The notes: a model not told the origin generated them from the sequence alone. 64,000 nucleotides of DNA from Armatimonadota bacterium (GCA_031081715.1 JAVHMA010000001.1:95385-159384), one strand, 5' to 3'; numbered from the stretch's first letter, positions 43,742 to 63,555 are shown. Translations and numbers: made by a program.

Positions 43742-45124
43742 GTGGGATCGCGTGTCGGCGTTCGCCTGCTGCTGATTCTCGTGCTCCTGCTCGCTGCCGT
43801 GCAGGTCGCGTTTCGGCCGCTCGCCATTGTGGGGAGGGCGCCGGTCGGCCAGCCGCTGCAGCTCCGCATGAACCTGGGGCTCGACCTGCAGGGCGGTAGC
43901 CTGCTGGTGCTCGAGGGGCAGGACACGCCGGCGGCCCGGGCGACCCCGGAGGCCGTGGACGCCGCGATGCGCGTCATCGAGCGCCGCGTGGACCAGCTCG
44001 GGGTTGTCGAGCCGACCATCCAGCGGCAGGGCGCCAACCGGATCCTCATCGAGCTGCCCGGCATCGCTGACCCGCAGCGGGCCATCGCGCTCATCGGCAA
44101 GACCGCGCTCCTGGAGTTCGTGGACACCGGGACCACGCAGCTCCCCGAGGGTGCGACCTGGAGCGCCGACGGCCGCACGGTCACGCTGCCCGAGGGTGCG
44201 GTCGCACCGTCCGCCCCGGGCGCCCGACCTCCGGCCCGCACTATCGCGCTCGAGAAGAAGGTCGTCCTCACCGGGGCCGAGCTCGAGACCGCGCAGGCCG
44301 GGTTCGACCAGCAGACCGCGCAGCCCATCGTCAACTTCCGCCTGCGCAGTGGCGGCGCGCGCGTCTTCGAGGAGTTCACCGCGGCCAATGTCGGGCGCTA
44401 TCTGACGATCGTCCTGGACAACGAGGTCATCAGCTCGCCCGTGATCCGCGACCGGATCCCGGGCGGGCAGGGCCAGATCAGCGGTGGTTTCCGCACCATC
44501 GAAGAGGCGCGCGATCTGGCCGTGCTTCTGCGCGGCGGCGCCCTGCCCATCCCGGTCCAGGTCGTGGAGAACCGCACCGTCGGGCCGCAGCTTGGCCGCG
44601 ACTCGATCGAGGCCAGCCTGCGGGCGTCGTGGATCGCTCTGGCCGCGGTGGGCCTGTTCATGCTCCTGTTCTACGGGCTCTCCGGGGTGCTGGCCGACCT
44701 GGCCCTGGCGCTCTACGTGCTGATGGTGCTCGCCGTGCTCAGCGGGCTCGGCGCGACCCTGACGCTGCCCGGGATTGCGGGACTGGTGCTCTCTGTTGGC
44801 ATGGCGGTGGACGCCAACGTCATCATCTTCGAGAAGCTGAAGGAGGAGCTCCGCGCCGGGAAGAGCCTCAGGATGGCGGTCGGCGCGGGCTGGAACCGGG
44901 CGATCCAGACGATCGTGGACTCCAACGTCACGACGCTGATCGCCACCGCGGTGCTGTTCCTCCTCGGGAGCGGGCCGATCCGGGGGTTCGCGGTGACGCT
45001 CAGCATCGGCGTGCTCGTGAGCATGTTCACGGCGATCGTGGTGACCCGGGCCCTGGTGGACGGGGCGGCGGCGGTCGGGCTCGGCCCGCAGGTCGCGCGG
45101 GTAGCCGGGAGGGCCAGCCGATGA
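43742..45124 (+). CDS. secD: Protein translocase subunit SecD
   Basis: RND-type accessory subunit that uses the proton gradient to pull secreted proteins. 460 residues: membrane segment 1 (about 6-25), the P1 periplasmic domain starting NLGLDLQGGSLLVLE, AAMRVIERRVDQLGVVEPTIQRQG, P1-head repeats, then five helices (from about 300) with GMAVDANVIIFEKLKEELRAGKS carrying the conserved Asp. GTG start; ATGA overlap with secF. Confidence 0.94.
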   Translation: MGSRVGVRLLLILVLLLAAVQVAFRPLAIVGRAPVGQPLQLRMNLGLDLQGGSLLVLEGQDTPAARATPEAVDAAMRVIERRVDQLGVVEPTIQRQGANRILIELPGIADPQRAIALIGKTALLEFVDTGTTQLPEGATWSADGRTVTLPEGAVAPSAPGARPPARTIALEKKVVLTGAELETAQAGFDQQTAQPIVNFRLRSGGARVFEEFTAANVGRYLTIVLDNEVISSPVIRDRIPGGQGQISGGFRTIEEARDLAVLLRGGALPIPVQVVENRTVGPQLGRDSIEASLRASWIALAAVGLFMLLFYGLSGVLADLALALYVLMVLAVLSGLGATLTLPGIAGLVLSVGMAVDANVIIFEKLKEELRAGKSLRMAVGAGWNRAIQTIVDSNVTTLIATAVLFLLGSGPIRGFAVTLSIGVLVSMFTAIVVTRALVDGAAAVGLGPQVARVAGRASR

Positions 45125-46128
45125 CCCCGCGCGTCTGGGACATCATCGGGCGCCGCGGATGGGGGTACGCGCTGTCGGCGCTGGTCATTCTCCCCGGCGT
45201 GGCCGCGTTGATCTACTACTCGGCGAGCGGGCAAGGGGCGCTCAACTGGGGCGTGGACTTTACCGGGGGGAGCTACTTCCAGATCCGAACGGAGCGGCCG
45301 GCGACCACCGGGCAGGTGCGCGCGGTCGTGAACCGCTTCGCGACCGGCCAGAGCACGATCCAGCGTTCAGAGCAGGACATCTTCATCCGGACCCGCCCGC
45401 TGGCGCCACAGGCTCGTGAGGGGCTGCTGGCGGCCCTGCGGAGCGAGTTCGGCACGGTAGCGATCCTGCGGGAAGATGAGGTCGGGCCGAAGATCGGCCA
45501 GGAGCTTCGCAACGTCGCGATCCTCGCGGTCGTCATCGGACTGGCGCTGCAGGTCGTCTACATCTCGTTCCGCTTCAAGGGCCTCCGCTACGCGCTGGCC
45601 GCCGACGCCGCGTTGCTGCACGACCTCCTGGTCGTGCTGGGCATCTTCGCCATCACGCGCAAGGAGGTCAACAGCGCGTTCGTAGCGGTGCTGCTCACGG
45701 TCGTAGGCTACTCGATCAACGACACGATTGTCGTCTTCGACCGCATCCGGGAGAACTTGGCGCTGCGGACGCGGGAGGCGTTCGACCGGCTGGTCAACCG
45801 CAGCCTGCTCGAGGCGCTTGTGCGCTCGATCAACACCTCGTTGACCACGATCCTGGCCATCGCGGCCGTCTTCTTCTTCGGCGGGGTGACCATCCGCGAC
45901 TTCGCCTTCGGTCTGCTGGTTGGCATCTTCGTTGGGACTTACTCGTCGATCTTCAACGCGAGTGCGCTCCTGGTGGACTGGACGCTCTGGGCCGATCGCC
46001 GGGCCGGCCGGGCCCGCGCCGCCCAAGACGTGGAGACCGGCGGGGCCACGCCCGCGCCGGTGCCGGCCGGTGCGGGCCCGCTGCCGGGCGAGGGCGGGGG
46101 CCGGCGCCGTCGGTCAAGGCGGAGGTGA
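45121..46128 (+). CDS. secF: Protein translocase subunit SecF
   Basis: 335 residues, six helices; WGVDFTGGSYFQIR near residue 42, EVGPKIGQELRNVAI, VLLTVVGYSINDTIVVFDRIRENL and the helix-5/6 SINTSLTTILAIAAVFFFGG are canonical. The C-terminal ~45 residues are a Pro/Gly/Ala linker ending in an Arg-rich tail. SecD and SecF are separate proteins here, unlike the fused SecDF of Bacillus. Confidence 0.94.
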   Translation: MTPRVWDIIGRRGWGYALSALVILPGVAALIYYSASGQGALNWGVDFTGGSYFQIRTERPATTGQVRAVVNRFATGQSTIQRSEQDIFIRTRPLAPQAREGLLAALRSEFGTVAILREDEVGPKIGQELRNVAILAVVIGLALQVVYISFRFKGLRYALAADAALLHDLLVVLGIFAITRKEVNSAFVAVLLTVVGYSINDTIVVFDRIRENLALRTREAFDRLVNRSLLEALVRSINTSLTTILAIAAVFFFGGVTIRDFAFGLLVGIFVGTYSSIFNASALLVDWTLWADRRAGRARAAQDVETGGATPAPVPAGAGPLPGEGGGRRRRSRRR

Positions 46129-46423: not shown

Positions 46424-49400
46424 ATGGGCGGGCCGCCGGACGCCCGCTGGCGCCTGCGCTCGTCCGACCCCGAGGACGTCGCCCGCCTGGCCGCCGCGCT
46501 CGACGTGTCGCCGCTCGTGGCGCGGCTGCTGGTCAACCGAGGCCTCGCGGATGCGGCGGCTGCGCGCGCCTTCCTCGACCCTCGTCTCGACCGCTTGAGC
46601 TCACCCTTCGCGCTCGCCGGCATGGAGGCGGCCGTGACGCGTCTCGTGCGCGGCCTGCGTGCGGGCGAGCGCATCGCCGTCTACGCGGACTACGACGCCG
46701 ACGGCGTGACCGCGGCCGCGCAGCTCCTGCGCACCCTGCGCGCGCTCGGCGCGCTGGTGGAGTGGTACATCCCGGACCGCCGGACCGAAGGCTACGGGCT
46801 ACATGCGGCCGCGGTGCGGTGGCTGGCGGCCGAGGGTGCCTCGCTGCTCGTCGCAGTGGACTGCGGCGTCACCGCCGTCGAGGCGGCCTGTGCCGCCCGG
46901 GAAGCCGGGTGTGACCTCGTGGTGCTGGACCACCACCTGCCCGGGCCGTCGCTGCCCGAGGCGGCGGTCGTCGTGAATCCCCATCTGAGCCCCGGGGCGA
47001 CGGAATTCTGCGCCGCGGGACTAGCCCTGCAGGCTTGCCGGGGACTGCTCCAGGCGGCCGGCCGCGGGGCCGAGAGCGGATCGCTACTCGCGCTCGCCGC
47101 GCTGGGCACCGTGGCCGACGCGGTCCCGCTGGTCGGCGACAACCGCATCATCGTGGCTGCGGCGCTCTCCGGGGCCGACTGGTCCGCCCCACCAGGGCTC
47201 GCCGCCCTGCGCGCGACCGCAGGGATCGAGCCGCCTTTGGGCGTCCGGGACCTCTCCTTCGTGCTCGCTCCCCGGTTGAATGCGGCAGGCCGCCTAGCGC
47301 ACGCCGGGGACGCGCTGCGGCTGCTGGTGAGCGACGACGTCGCGGAGTGCGCGCGGCTCGCCGAGGCTCTCGACCGGCTCAACGTGGAGCGACGCGCGCT
47401 CTGCGAGGCCGTGCTGGCCGACGCTGTGGCGGAAGTCGAGGCCGGTGGCCTGGCCGCCGCTCCGGCGATCGTCCTGGCGCGCGAGACCTGGCACCCGGGT
47501 GTCATCGGGATCGTGGCCTCCCAGCTCGTCGAGCGCTACTACCGGCCCGTGGTCCTGATCGCGCTCGACGGTGAGCTCGGCCGGGGCTCCGCACGAACTA
47601 TCCCGTCCGTGCACGTGGTCGAGGCCCTCGCCAGGGCCGCGAGCCACCTGACCGCGTTCGGCGGCCACGCCATGGCAGCCGGCCTGACCCTCCGCACGGA
47701 GGAGGTGCCGCGATTCCGCGAGGCCTTCCTGGCCGCGGTGGCCGCCCTGGTGCGGCCGGACGACCTGCACCCGGTCGTGGAGATCGACGCCGAGGTCGCG
47801 CTATCGGAACTGACCCCGCAGCTCGCCGGGCAGCTCGCACGCCTGGCGCCGCACGGCGCCGGACAGCCCGTGCCGGTGCTCCTGACCCGGGGGCTGCGCG
47901 CGACCGGTGCGCGGGTCGTGGGCGGTGGCGCACACCTGCGCCTGGTTGTTAGCGACGGGGCGTGCACCGCGGAAGCCATCGGGTTCCGGTTGGGTGACCG
48001 CGCCGAGCTCTTGGCCTTCACCCAGGCCCGCGTGGACTTGGCGTACGCGGTCGAGCTCGACCGGTGGTGCGAGGGGAACGGGGTGCAGCTCGTCGTCGAG
48101 GCGCTGTGGACGCCCGACGTGGAACCCGCGGCCGTGGCGACCGACGTCGACGGCGTCCTCGACCGGCTGTTCGCGCGCGCCGGCGACTACCTGGACAGCC
48201 GCCACATGCGGGCCGACGACGCGGAGGCGTTTCACACCAAGGTTGTCGGGGTCACCTTCGCGGATCGGCAGGCGGTCCTGGCCGAGGTGCGGCCGGGCGA
48301 GCGCCTGCGGCTCGTACGCGACCCGGCCAACCCGGCGGATCCGCACGCGATCCAGGTGCGCCGCGCCGACGGCAGGCAGCTCGGGTTCCTGCGGGCGCCC
48401 CTCGCAGCACGGCTGGCGCCGGCCATGGACGCAGGCGCCCGCTACGCCGTAACCGCCACGGCCCTGACCGGGGGCGGCGATCGCGCGCTCGGCCTCAACG
48501 TGCTGGTTCGCCGGGAAGCGGCCTGGGCGGGTGACGCCTCGGTGCCAGGGGCCGCGTCAGGGCTGGGTCCCACCCACCGGCTCATCGACCGCCTGGCGGC
48601 CACGGCCTACAGGGGCCGGCCGCTGTCGGGGCTCCAGCGCGAGGTTCTGGCCGCGGTGGCCGGAGGCGCGCGGCTCGCGGTCCGGATGGCGCCGGGACAG
48701 GGACTGGTGGCCACCAGCACGATGGCCGCTGCGCTGCTGGCGAGCCAGGTTTGCGCCCCGGTGGCCGTCGTGCTCCCGCGGGCTGTGGAGGCGGATGCCT
48801 GGGCCGCGGCAGCCGGACCATGGCTGCGCGAAGTCGGACTCCGGTCGGCCGCGGCGCACGGCGCGCTGCCACCGCCCCTTCGCACCTGGGTGGCAGAGGG
48901 CGGGGCGCTGGACGTGCTGTTCGCCTCGGCGGAGTGGCTCGCGACGCATCCCTCGGCGGCGGCGGCCACCGTGGTCGTCGTGGATGATGCCGACCCCGGG
49001 CTGCCCGGATCGTCGGGCAGCGCCGATCCGCACGCTCGGCTGGTGCTCGGGCGTCTCTCTGACGCGCAAGTCGCGGCGCTGGCGGCCCGCGGCCTGACGC
49101 CGGGACCCACCAACGCCGGGCCGCGCACCAACCTCAGGGTGGTGGACCGGCGCGGTCGCGCGGCCGCAGATGCGCTCCTCGCGGGTGCTCGCGACCGTCC
49201 CGACCCTGTGGTTGTCCTGACGCCGGACGCAGCGACGGCGGTGGCGGCGGCGCTGGACCTCCGGCGGGTCAGGCCCCCTGACGCAGGCCGCGTCGCCTAC
49301 TACCACGAGGGCTTGCCGCTGGCGTTGCGGCGGGTGCTCGAGGACCTGTTCAGCGCGGGCGCGATCCGCGCGCTCGTCGCCGGCACGCTCCTGGTCGATC

Positions 49401-49909
49401 CTTCCGCGCCGCCGACGGTCTCGCGTGTGGTGGCGCTCGGCCTTCCACCCACACGCCTGCTCGCGTCCGAGGCCATGGGGATTGCCGGCCGGGACGGCCG
49501 CCAGGCGGCCGTCGAGCTCGCGTACGACCCCGGGGTGCTGGACGCCCTGACCGCGGCCACAACCCGCCGGCACCCGCCGCGCGAAGCGCTCGTGCGGTGT
49601 TACCATTACTTCAGGGAGCTTGACCGCCGCGGGCCGTGGGCGCTGCCGGCCGCCGGCAGCGCGGGCCTGCCCGCGGAGACGCTCGCCGCGGCGGTGGACG
49701 TGTTCCTCGAGGCCGGGGTCGTGGCGGTGGAGGATGGCGAGGGCGCCGGGACGCGGTACGCGCTCGTCGCGTCCGAGGGCCGCGTGGACCTGACGCGCTC
49801 CCTCCGGTACCGGGAGGGCGCGCGCGAGCGCGCGGCGGTCGAGACACTGCGCGCGTGGGCCGGTGGCGGCGCCGCGGCGATTCTGGCCACGCTGGCCGCG
49901 GGCGCGTGA
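46424..49909 (+). CDS. recJ: RecJ ssDNA exonuclease fused to HIRAN and degenerate RecQ-like helicase modules
   Basis: 1161 residues, far longer than usual RecJ (about 550-800). Residues 86-95 YADYDADGV, 148-152 VDCGV, 169-171 DHH and 413-420 GGHAMAAG give an intact DHH/DHHA1 nuclease, followed by the OB domain (about 455-590). Residues about 603-686 look like HIRAN (VVGVTFADRQ, RLVRDPANPADPHAIQV, GQLGFL-like). From about 735 the layout copies RecQ: LQREVLAAVAGG, a Walker A site reduced to MAPGQGLVATS without Lys, VVVVDDAD for DEAH, then VVVLTP, AYYHEGLP, AGTLLVDPS and GIAGRDGRQ. A winged-helix-like tail follows. The ATPase is probably dead. Transcribed with secDF and rel. Confidence 0.88.
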   Translation: MGGPPDARWRLRSSDPEDVARLAAALDVSPLVARLLVNRGLADAAAARAFLDPRLDRLSSPFALAGMEAAVTRLVRGLRAGERIAVYADYDADGVTAAAQLLRTLRALGALVEWYIPDRRTEGYGLHAAAVRWLAAEGASLLVAVDCGVTAVEAACAAREAGCDLVVLDHHLPGPSLPEAAVVVNPHLSPGATEFCAAGLALQACRGLLQAAGRGAESGSLLALAALGTVADAVPLVGDNRIIVAAALSGADWSAPPGLAALRATAGIEPPLGVRDLSFVLAPRLNAAGRLAHAGDALRLLVSDDVAECARLAEALDRLNVERRALCEAVLADAVAEVEAGGLAAAPAIVLARETWHPGVIGIVASQLVERYYRPVVLIALDGELGRGSARTIPSVHVVEALARAASHLTAFGGHAMAAGLTLRTEEVPRFREAFLAAVAALVRPDDLHPVVEIDAEVALSELTPQLAGQLARLAPHGAGQPVPVLLTRGLRATGARVVGGGAHLRLVVSDGACTAEAIGFRLGDRAELLAFTQARVDLAYAVELDRWCEGNGVQLVVEALWTPDVEPAAVATDVDGVLDRLFARAGDYLDSRHMRADDAEAFHTKVVGVTFADRQAVLAEVRPGERLRLVRDPANPADPHAIQVRRADGRQLGFLRAPLAARLAPAMDAGARYAVTATALTGGGDRALGLNVLVRREAAWAGDASVPGAASGLGPTHRLIDRLAATAYRGRPLSGLQREVLAAVAGGARLAVRMAPGQGLVATSTMAAALLASQVCAPVAVVLPRAVEADAWAAAAGPWLREVGLRSAAAHGALPPPLRTWVAEGGALDVLFASAEWLATHPSAAAATVVVVDDADPGLPGSSGSADPHARLVLGRLSDAQVAALAARGLTPGPTNAGPRTNLRVVDRRGRAAADALLAGARDRPDPVVVLTPDAATAVAAALDLRRVRPPDAGRVAYYHEGLPLALRRVLEDLFSAGAIRALVAGTLLVDPSAPPTVSRVVALGLPPTRLLASEAMGIAGRDGRQAAVELAYDPGVLDALTAATTRRHPPREALVRCYHYFRELDRRGPWALPAAGSAGLPAETLAAAVDVFLEAGVVAVEDGEGAGTRYALVASEGRVDLTRSLRYREGARERAAVETLRAWAGGGAAAILATLAAGA

Positions 49910-49970
49910 GCAGGGCTCCGTGCGGGAGCACCGAAGTGGTGCGGGACGAGCTGGTAAGGTGGATGCAGCG

Positions 49971-52172
49971 GTGAAGTGGCTCGACCTTCGACGGCAGCAG
50001 GCCAGCTTCCAGGACCTGCCCCCACAGGTTCAGGGCCTCGTGGCGACCCTGCGCGCCCACTTCCCGCGCGCCGACCTGGACGTCGTCCGCGAGGCGTACC
50101 TGGCGGCGGCCCGCGCGCACGACGGCCAGATGCGCGCCTCCGGCGAGCCCTACGTCACCCACGCCGTGGCGGTGGCCGGGATCCTGGCCGACTTGCACCT
50201 CGACCCGACGACCGTGGCCGCCGCGCTGCTGCACGACGTGCTCGAGGACACGGGTGTCGAGCCCGACGAGTTGCGCGAGCGGTTCGGCGCCGAGATCGCG
50301 ACCCTGGTGGACGGGGTCACCAAGCTGGGCCGGATCGAGTGGCAGAGCCGGGAGCAGCGGCAGGCCGAGAATCTGCGCAAGATGTTCCTGGCGATGGCCA
50401 ACGACATCCGCATCGTGCTCATCAAGCTTGCTGACCGGTTGCACAACATGCGCACGATCGCGCCGCTGCCGGACTGGAAGCGGCGCCGAACGTCCCAGGA
50501 GACCCTGGACATCTACGCCCCGCTCGCGGAGCGGCTCGGGATCGGCAGCCTGCAGAAGGAGCTGGAGGACCTGGCGTTCCGCGAGCTCGAGCCCGAGGCG
50601 TACGCCGAGCTCACGCGCGAGCTGACCCAGGCCGAGGAGGCGCGGCAGCGCATCGTGGACCACGTGTGCGCGGTCCTCCAGCGCGAGCTGCAGCGCGCCG
50701 GGATCAAAGTGGACCCACGGCACATTACCGGCCGGCCCAAGCACATCTACAGTATCTGGAAGAAGCTGCAACGGCCCAAGTACGCGGGCCAGCCGATCGC
50801 GCGCATCTATGACCGCCTCGGGGTGCGTGTTCTCGTGGATGACATCAAGGACTGCTACGCGGCGCTGGGCGTGGTGCACTCGGTGTGGAAGCCGATTCCC
50901 GGCGAGTTCGACGACTACATCGCCAACCCCAAGACCAGCGGGTACCAGTCGCTGCACACGGCCGTCCTCCACGAAGGCGAGCCGCTGGAAATCCAGATCC
51001 GCACCCACCAGATGCACGAGGAGGCCGAGCGCGGCATCGCCGCCCACTGGAAGTACAAGCAGGGGAAGCCCGCGGGGGCCGAGCTCGACCAGAAGCTGGC
51101 GTGGCTCCGGCAACTGCTGGAGTGGCAGAAGGACCTGGCGGATGCCCGGGAGTTCGTGGCGTCGGTCCGGCTGGACCTGTTCCAAAACGAGGTATTCGTG
51201 TTCACCCCCAAGGGTGACGTCGTCGACCTGCCGTCGGGCGCGACGCCGATCGACTTCGCGTATCGGATCCACACCGACATCGGCCACCACACTGTGGGCG
51301 CCCGCGTGAACGGCCGGCTCGTGCCGCTGTCGCAGAAGCTGCACACGGGCGACATCGTCGAGATCGTCACCAACAAGAGTAGCCCCGGGCCCAGCCGCGA
51401 CTGGCTGGGCTTCGTTGCCACGAGCAACGCGCGCGCGAAGATCCGACAGTGGTTCAAGCATGAGCGTCACCAGGAGAACGTCGGTCGCGGCCGGGAGCTG
51501 CTGGAGCGCGAGCTGCGCCGGACCGGCAGCGTCACCGCCGGGATGAAGCCCGACCGGCTGGCCGAGATCGCGGGCAAGTTCGGGATGCCCTCGGAGGAGG
51601 AACTGCTCGCCGCGGTCGGCAACGGCGACCTCTCGCTGCTCCAAGTGGCGCAGGCGCTGCGGGGCGAGGCACCCGCGGAGATCGAGGAGGCGCCCGCGCT
51701 GCCGGTGGCCGCGCCGCCCGCCCCGACCGGGGTCCGGGTGCGCGGGGTCGACAACGTACTGATGCACTTCGCGCGCTGCTGCACCCCGCTGCCGGGCGAC
51801 CGCATCGTCGGCTACATCACGCGCGGCCGCGGCGTGACGATCCACCGCAGCGACTGCTCCAACATCGCGTTCCTGCGTGGCCATCCCGAGCGCCTGCTCG
51901 AGGTGGAGTGGGAGACCTCCGCCGCCGGCTCCTACCAGGTGGAGATCGAGGTAGAGGCGTTCGATCGGGTCGGTTTGCTGAAGGACATCATGGCCGCGGT
52001 CGCCGAGACGAAGACCAACGCGCTGTCCGTGAACGCCCGGGTGCGCAAGGACAAGGTCGTGGTGACCAACCTGGTGCTCGACATCCGCAATGTCGGGCAG
52101 CTCCACGCGGTGATGCAGAAGGTAGAGAAGGTGCCCGAGGTCTTCAGCGTGGCGCGCGTGGTCCCCACGTGA
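49971..52172 (+). CDS. rel: RelA/SpoT-type (p)ppGpp synthetase/hydrolase
   Basis: Stringent-response enzyme, 733 residues from GTG 49971 (AAGGTGG site; GTG 49959 is an alternative). Order: HD hydrolase domain (HAVAVAGIL, LLHDVLEDTG, DRLHNMRT, about 65-150), synthetase domain (YDRLGVRVLV, SGYQSLHTAV, EIQIRT, about 220-350), TGS (FVFTPKGDVVDLPSGATPIDFAY, about 405) and a C-terminal ACT domain (VEIEVEAFDRVGLLKDI). The substrate-binding motif reads PGEFDDYIA, the acidic E-x-D-D of RelA synthetases, although the HD site looks intact. Followed by an aminotransferase and dtd, as in related genomes. Confidence 0.93.
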   Translation: MKWLDLRRQQASFQDLPPQVQGLVATLRAHFPRADLDVVREAYLAAARAHDGQMRASGEPYVTHAVAVAGILADLHLDPTTVAAALLHDVLEDTGVEPDELRERFGAEIATLVDGVTKLGRIEWQSREQRQAENLRKMFLAMANDIRIVLIKLADRLHNMRTIAPLPDWKRRRTSQETLDIYAPLAERLGIGSLQKELEDLAFRELEPEAYAELTRELTQAEEARQRIVDHVCAVLQRELQRAGIKVDPRHITGRPKHIYSIWKKLQRPKYAGQPIARIYDRLGVRVLVDDIKDCYAALGVVHSVWKPIPGEFDDYIANPKTSGYQSLHTAVLHEGEPLEIQIRTHQMHEEAERGIAAHWKYKQGKPAGAELDQKLAWLRQLLEWQKDLADAREFVASVRLDLFQNEVFVFTPKGDVVDLPSGATPIDFAYRIHTDIGHHTVGARVNGRLVPLSQKLHTGDIVEIVTNKSSPGPSRDWLGFVATSNARAKIRQWFKHERHQENVGRGRELLERELRRTGSVTAGMKPDRLAEIAGKFGMPSEEELLAAVGNGDLSLLQVAQALRGEAPAEIEEAPALPVAAPPAPTGVRVRGVDNVLMHFARCCTPLPGDRIVGYITRGRGVTIHRSDCSNIAFLRGHPERLLEVEWETSAAGSYQVEIEVEAFDRVGLLKDIMAAVAETKTNALSVNARVRKDKVVVTNLVLDIRNVGQLHAVMQKVEKVPEVFSVARVVPT

Positions 52173-63369: not shown

Positions 63370-63555
63370 GGAACGGTTCTCTGCCGTGTGCGAGGCGGGT
63401 CGATAGCCCCGATCCAACACGGAGTCCCAGGGAGCCCGTCTCCGACCGTGGAGGGTTCCCGCGTGATCAGCGTGGGCGACGAATCGGTCGGGAGGGCACC
63501 CACCTACGAGCGTAGGGTTCGGGGGCTATGATCCGCACGGCACGGCGGAGAGCAC
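63370..63555 (+). ncRNA. ssrS: 6S RNA
   Basis: A long, rod-like RNA is predicted in the 360-base gap between aspS and rarA, the usual Bacillota 6S locus. Closing stem: GTTCTC (63376-63381) with GAGAGC (63548-63553), GCCGTG (63383-63388) with CACGGC (63541-63546), TGCG (63389-63392) with CGCA (63534-63537). A central open region contains GATCC (63411-63415) and TATGATCC (63527-63534). The apical arm pairs TCCGACCG (about 63440-63448) with CGGTCGGG (63485-63492). 6S mimics an open promoter and binds sigma-70 RNA polymerase. No open reading frame in the gap is convincing. Confidence 0.75.

Follow-up and report, generated by a model that had tools for sequence, protein, structure and literature searches.

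RecQ and RecJ are textbook partners in end resection by the RecF pathway, and they have been studied as separate proteins. Tails on RecJ are a known feature. In Deinococcus, the RecJ core is followed by an extra C-terminal domain, as in the protein reported here; this domain binds the tail of SSB (PMC4846377), is required in vivo (PMC4663267), and was reported by its authors to have no defined homologue by HHpred (PMC4663267, PMC4846377). However, it spans about 170 residues and has neither HIRAN nor recognised helicase homology, and the two are likened by description, not by homology. RecJ of the Bacilli type, such as S. aureus RecJ (PDB 8y30), ends in PF10141 (ssDNA-exonuc_C), a tail distantly related to lobe 2 and the winged helix of the present protein, but it has no HIRAN and no lobe 1, and its lobe 2 is nearly unrecognisable. 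HLTF/Rad5 shares the HIRAN fold, the RxPxNPxDxxA region and a helicase-type core behind it, although HLTF combines these with a SWI/SNF motor and a RING, whereas here HIRAN sits between RecJ and a dead RecQ-like core. Finally, RecQ itself (E. coli 1OYW, RECQL4/5, WRN) is the nearest helicase to the C-terminal half in both sequence and fold, but this half lacks the ATPase motifs, branches as a clade apart, follows a HIRAN domain and ends in a helical hairpin of its own. In the open-licence papers searched, neither fusions of RecJ with HIRAN or RecQ nor the idea that RecJ tails are what remains of helicases could be found, though the subscription literature may differ. The protein is a RecJ with a tail, which is a known kind.

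The window, i.e. the whole stretch of 64,000 nucleotides that was analysed, contains this gene as one uninterrupted frame by ORF calling, with the following features and context:

46424..49909, plus strand: whole gene, RecJ-HIRAN-pseudohelicase, 1161 aa (single ORF; full-length orthologues phylum-wide)
46670..47107, plus strand: DHH nuclease domain, aa 83-228 (Pfam PF01368, E 2.5e-18)
47468..47740, plus strand: DHHA1 domain, aa 349-439 (Pfam PF02272, E 1e-14)
47783..48100, plus strand: RecJ_OB domain, aa 454-559 (Pfam PF17768, E 1e-20)
48227..48517, plus strand: HIRAN domain, aa ~602-698 (Pfam PF08797, HLTF HIRAN structures, model)
48569..49051, plus strand: pseudohelicase RecA-like lobe 1, aa ~716-876, ATPase motifs lost (model, RecQ profile match, motif table)
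48689..48709, plus strand: Walker A remnant APGQGLV, aa 756-762, GTGRGKS in intact relatives (alignment)
48965..48988, plus strand: motif II remnant VVVVDDAD, aa ~848-855, DEAH/DESH in intact relatives (alignment)
49133..49519, plus strand: pseudohelicase lobe 2, aa ~904-1032, with conserved DxR and YHxxLP..R (model, orthologue Helicase_C matches)
49478..49504, plus strand: motif VI remnant GIAGRDGRQ, aa 1019-1027, GRAGRDG in intact relatives (alignment)
49529..49765, plus strand: winged helix, aa ~1036-1114 (model; PF10141 matches the equivalent region in L141, an intact relative)
49802..49897, plus strand: C-terminal helical hairpin, aa ~1127-1158, after the DLxxSxRYxEG motif (model)
43742..46128, plus strand: secD then secF, upstream context (ORFs, orthologous locus)
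49863..52172, plus strand: relA/spoT-type (p)ppGpp synthetase, downstream context (ORF limits; the real start is probably later)

Residues 1-560 are an ordinary RecJ with DHH, DHHA1 and OB domains in Pfam, and the NCBIfam recJ model TIGR00644 scores 450.6 bits against a cut-off of 396.9, which places the protein in the RecJ family. DYDADG, DCG, DHH and GGHxxAxG can all be read in the translation. Judged by its sequence, the protein is a RecJ-type nuclease with intact catalytic motifs, as an earlier sequence-only reading of this DNA had stated.

That reading had also placed a HIRAN domain at about residues 603-686. The Pfam match to PF08797 covers residues 603-673 (E 2.3e-12; 47 bits, cut-off 24.7), and the barrel fold is present at about 602-698 in the AlphaFold2 model, so that both score and fold assign the protein to the HIRAN family; chains of the HLTF HIRAN structures match as well (E 7.5e-6). 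Its Arg, Asn and Asp are conserved in 37-39 of 39 aligned sequences from the phylum of the window, and its dN/dS among close relatives, 0.04-0.2, is usually the lowest of the protein. The exception is the pair L038/L039 (genus g19 of the same phylum), in which HIRAN is badly eroded, with a dN/dS of 0.62 and the conserved first strand gone; loss is under way in this pair, and hence the domain is not essential everywhere. The HIRAN domain of HLTF accommodates a dinucleotide, which lies between Y72 and Y93 (PMC4666394). According to our alignment, one of these stacking tyrosines is Phe in the window protein and the other is Ala, thus the binding mode may differ, and it is by homology to HLTF that 3'-end binding may be attributed to this domain. 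A search of genome contigs with the single C-terminal sequence gave one match, in a Sphingomonas stretch, covering the HIRAN part only.

For the remainder of the C-terminal half, searches with the single sequence give no helicase match in Pfam, weak matches to RecQ-type NCBIfam models (E 0.05-0.17), and RECQL4 in the PDB (E 8e-4). With a profile of this half built from 33 orthologues, RecQ structures rank first (4tmu, E 5.5e-24; 1oyw, E 1.8e-20), and 25 of the 33 orthologues have a Helicase_C match in the lobe 2 region. AlphaFold2 models residues 560-1161 with a pLDDT of 87.4 and a pTM of 0.86, as a HIRAN barrel, two alpha/beta lobes, a winged helix and a C-terminal helical hairpin (the domain names are our reading), and the top Foldseek matches of the model in the PDB are RECQL5, WRN, RecQ1 and bacterial RecQ (E ~1e-13 to 1e-11). 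Profile, model and Foldseek agree on two RecA-like lobes most similar to RecQ; structure prediction, a check that the sequence-only reading had proposed, finds both the HIRAN fold and the RecA-like lobes.

The ATPase motifs are altered just as that reading had described, namely a lost Walker A lysine, VVVVDDAD in place of DEAH, and a retained GIAGRDGRQ. Specifically, K/S of Walker A are replaced by L/V, E and H of DExH are both replaced by D, and the first Arg of motif VI is Ile while the second is retained. The Walker A lysine and the first motif VI Arg are absent in 39/39 aligned sequences of the phylum, the DExH glutamate is retained in one and the second motif VI Arg in three, whereas intact relatives elsewhere keep the lysine and the first motif VI Arg (27/27 and 29/29, respectively). 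The glycine-rich loop, mostly GPGRG in this phylum, is still recognisable from the family's own GTGRGK(S/T). The window protein lacks the functional Walker A, DExH and motif VI arginines of a RecQ helicase and does not reach the recQ NCBIfam cut-offs (E 0.17), which the intact relatives do not reach either (179-201 bits against 219.8-640). Because the lysine and the first motif VI Arg are lost in all 39 sequences, the C-terminal half is, on its motifs, RecQ-derived and not a RecQ helicase; profile, Foldseek and the lost lysine bear out the dead RecQ-like C-terminus of the sequence-only reading. Outside the ATPase sites, lobe 2 has an invariant YxHxxLPxxxR in the phylum and is preceded by an invariant DxR; likewise invariant are PxR, ahead of the winged helix, and LxxxxRxxEG, ahead of the final helices, with the L, E and G of DLxxSxRYxEG the same in 39/39.

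The fusion protein is matched in 28/28 good-quality genomes of the phylum and in 41/43 of all its genomes, normally at full length in frames of ~1100-1300 residues; the sample of 43 covers one order and seven families. RecJ-HIRAN-pseudohelicase is the form that RecJ normally takes throughout the phylum. Comparisons of close relatives give dN/dS values of 0.08-0.27 for the RecJ core and mostly 0.1-0.3 for the lobes and winged helix, with lobe 1 reaching 0.45 in L038/L039. A pseudogene is rejected by this purifying selection, with dN/dS well below 1 in every segment, and an assembly or frameshift artefact by the recurrence of the ORF length in independent genomes. In three fragmented assemblies (G008, G021 and G030; loci L008, L042 and L043) the gene is broken into two or three frames, probably by assembly errors; the split in G021 falls between RecJ and HIRAN. 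In the helicase tree, the dead clade is monophyletic (support 99) on a stem of 0.88 changes per site, apart from RecQ. Since the Walker A and motif VI losses are phylum-wide, motor death is probably older than the families of the phylum. Helicase profile searches of these genomes gave no convincing separate RecQ, and the best candidate, in G018, was rejected, its sequence being RecG.

Relatives with an intact motor are found in two other phyla. In family f133 of one of them, a profile search identified a stand-alone HIRAN-helicase (frames of ~650-800 aa) with intact GTGRGKS, DExH, (T/S)AT and GRAGR, located directly after secD-secF:

2579-4579 of L054, minus strand: stand-alone HIRAN-RecQ-like helicase, f133; the same in L055-L084 (profile search)

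A TIGR00644 search of 149 genomes of its phylum detected no RecJ in f133, with RecJ present in 28 genomes of other families; the same search found none in the listed genomes of families f160, f167 and f168. The other phylum was reached via long RecJs and drawn through G094, whose RecJ carries a Bacilli-type PF10141 tail. It contains L141, a RecJ-HIRAN-helicase of 1209 residues that has kept all its ATPase motifs intact. Among 398 genomes drawn evenly from it, 26 encode intact fusions of ~1200-1270 residues, all of which keep the Walker A Lys, DExH and both motif VI arginines. This intact set (L141 and L148-L173 except L169) resembles the window protein in domain order, length, locus and C-terminal motifs, but differs from it in that Walker A, DExH and motif VI are intact. 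Intact fusions are likely to be active helicase-nucleases. In the same sample, L169 is a HIRAN-helicase alone, and others are partly eroded; the genome of L169 (intact, 657 aa) also has a separate 1091-aa helicase-type frame (G680:C1:1496735-1498192). In L174, a RecJ-HIRAN-helicase frame of 1197 aa, the Walker A pattern was not found while DEAH, TAT and GRAGR are present, possibly a motor in the process of dying.

The surroundings are shared as well. In loci that extend far enough, a relA gene lies downstream in 50/52 cases from the window's phylum and 29/31 from the fusion phylum, and secF/secD lie upstream in the window's phylum, f133, G588 and L142, so that all of these look like one and the same gene. 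Given the same domain order with an intact helicase elsewhere, the window protein is, by comparison of these sequences, one of a family of RecJ-HIRAN-helicase fusions, and a decayed one. The sequence-only reading knew of no described example, which stands for the open-licence literature, but the layout is phylum-wide and has an intact version in another phylum; its interpretation is right about the fusion, yet too narrow for an architecture that is standard in one phylum and occurs in 26/398 genomes elsewhere with its motor intact. Likewise, the self-contained resection enzyme that it proposed fits the intact relatives better, as the window protein would need a helicase in trans.

Many other RecJ tails can be arranged by how much of the fusion they retain, the E-values being those of matches to a profile of the window's phylum, which are weak for the most eroded tails. 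Lobe 1, lobe 2 and winged helix without HIRAN are found in L142 (E 8e-65), L143 (3e-19) and L136 (9e-24); lobe 2 and winged helix in L145/L120 (~1e-32), L090 (3e-28) and L097 (6e-16); and scarcely more than the winged helix in L100, L102, L114 and L094 (1e-3 to 1e-7). The winged helix, with the C-terminal helices, is thus the part that survives longest. The long tails of L095, L106, L109, L110 and L125 gave no significant profile match. L096, a 1047-aa RecJ, has a 490-residue tail matching the profile at E 0.2 and PF10141 at E 0.001; by eye it looks like both lobes and a winged helix, which would make it an extreme case of decay.

In profile-profile comparison, ten eroded tails match the pseudohelicase over 239 columns (probability 99.4, E 1.6e-21), and six PF10141-type tails match its lobe 2 and winged helix by hhalign, a weaker link (probability 94.9, E 4e-8). 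PF10141 itself has a match in the intact fusion L141, at the winged helix (E 3.8e-5), and no Pfam match in the window protein, where kinship is by profile comparison only. The predicted structure of a PF10141-type tail is moderately confident (pLDDT 73), and its top Foldseek match is S. aureus RecJ, with a weak one to Hel308 (E 0.015). Structural support for this link being weak, it is sequence profiles that argue for PF10141 deriving from a helicase. The tree of RecJ cores from the fusion phylum places eroded forms among intact fusions, with at least three changes of state, and rejects a grouping of the eroded forms in one clade (AU p 0.0007).

Taken as a whole, the explanation that we consider probable is a decayed ancestral helicase-nuclease fusion, now a RecJ exonuclease with an end-binding HIRAN arm and an inert helicase core. 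The ancestor would have been a resection machine made of one chain: its 3'-5' RecQ-like motor would have separated the strands of the duplex, RecJ would have degraded the 5' strand, and HIRAN would have kept hold of either the end of the 3' strand or the ssDNA of the junction. In the window's phylum the motor would have been lost once, before the families diverged. The present protein may work as an exonuclease whose end-binding arm is fixed. HIRAN would hold the 3' ssDNA end or a branch, and RecJ would be placed at the junction by the inert core and winged helix, which would also provide docking sites for partners; by analogy with what the RecJ tail of Deinococcus binds, the SSB C-terminal tail is a probable one. 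Unwinding would be supplied by a separate helicase in trans. A role of the pseudohelicase as a DNA-binding scaffold is plausible, because its structure is kept, it is under purifying selection and HIRAN is the most strongly constrained part.

One may argue that the dead helicase is a platform for proteins only, such as the SSB tail, the trans helicase, RecO or other partners, and that HIRAN and the lobes bind no DNA ends. The long persistence of the winged helix and C-terminal helices in RecJ tails fits this, as does the SSB-binding tail of Deinococcus RecJ with its requirement in vivo (PMC4846377, PMC4663267), but the usually lowest dN/dS of HIRAN and its retained Arg/Asn/Asp pattern point to a kept ligand, and we regard a pure platform as doubtful. 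Another rival concerns history, not the description of the window protein: the HIRAN-helicase may have been a separate neighbour gene fused to recJ independently in several lineages, as the intact stand-alone gene after secDF in f133, a family showing no RecJ, would suggest. Nevertheless, all groups share the locus, the RecJ tree puts eroded tails in among the intact fusions, and domain order is constant throughout, so independent fusions seem unlikely. Finally, a functionless relic drifting away is very improbable: tails were shortened in many lineages, and helicase-derived ones eroded at least three times in the fusion phylum, but the C-terminal half is kept in 28/28 good genomes of the window's phylum with dN/dS well below 1 in every segment, a confident fold and invariant residues away from the ATPase sites.

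Returning to the decayed fusion, the best reading is that the ancestral motor died more than once and that the DNA- or SSB-binding parts stayed. On balance we lean towards a broader proposal, in which many RecJ tails, among them that of Bacilli (PF10141) and perhaps the one that binds SSB in Deinococcus, are remnants of one ancestral RecJ-HIRAN-RecQ helicase-nuclease; the intact enzyme would survive in some lineages, the motor would have been lost repeatedly, and the nuclease lost in one family that keeps only the HIRAN-helicase. A natural RecJ-HIRAN-RecQ-like chain would be a complete bacterial resection machine that can be purified and in which motor-nuclease coupling can be addressed. Moreover, the motor-dead series reveals which parts selection retains after motor loss, and the erosion series suggests where RecJ C-terminal domains that were called novel and without homologues may come from. 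Elsewhere in the window, a 6S RNA (RF00013) lies at 63375-63555 on the plus strand (76.9 bits).
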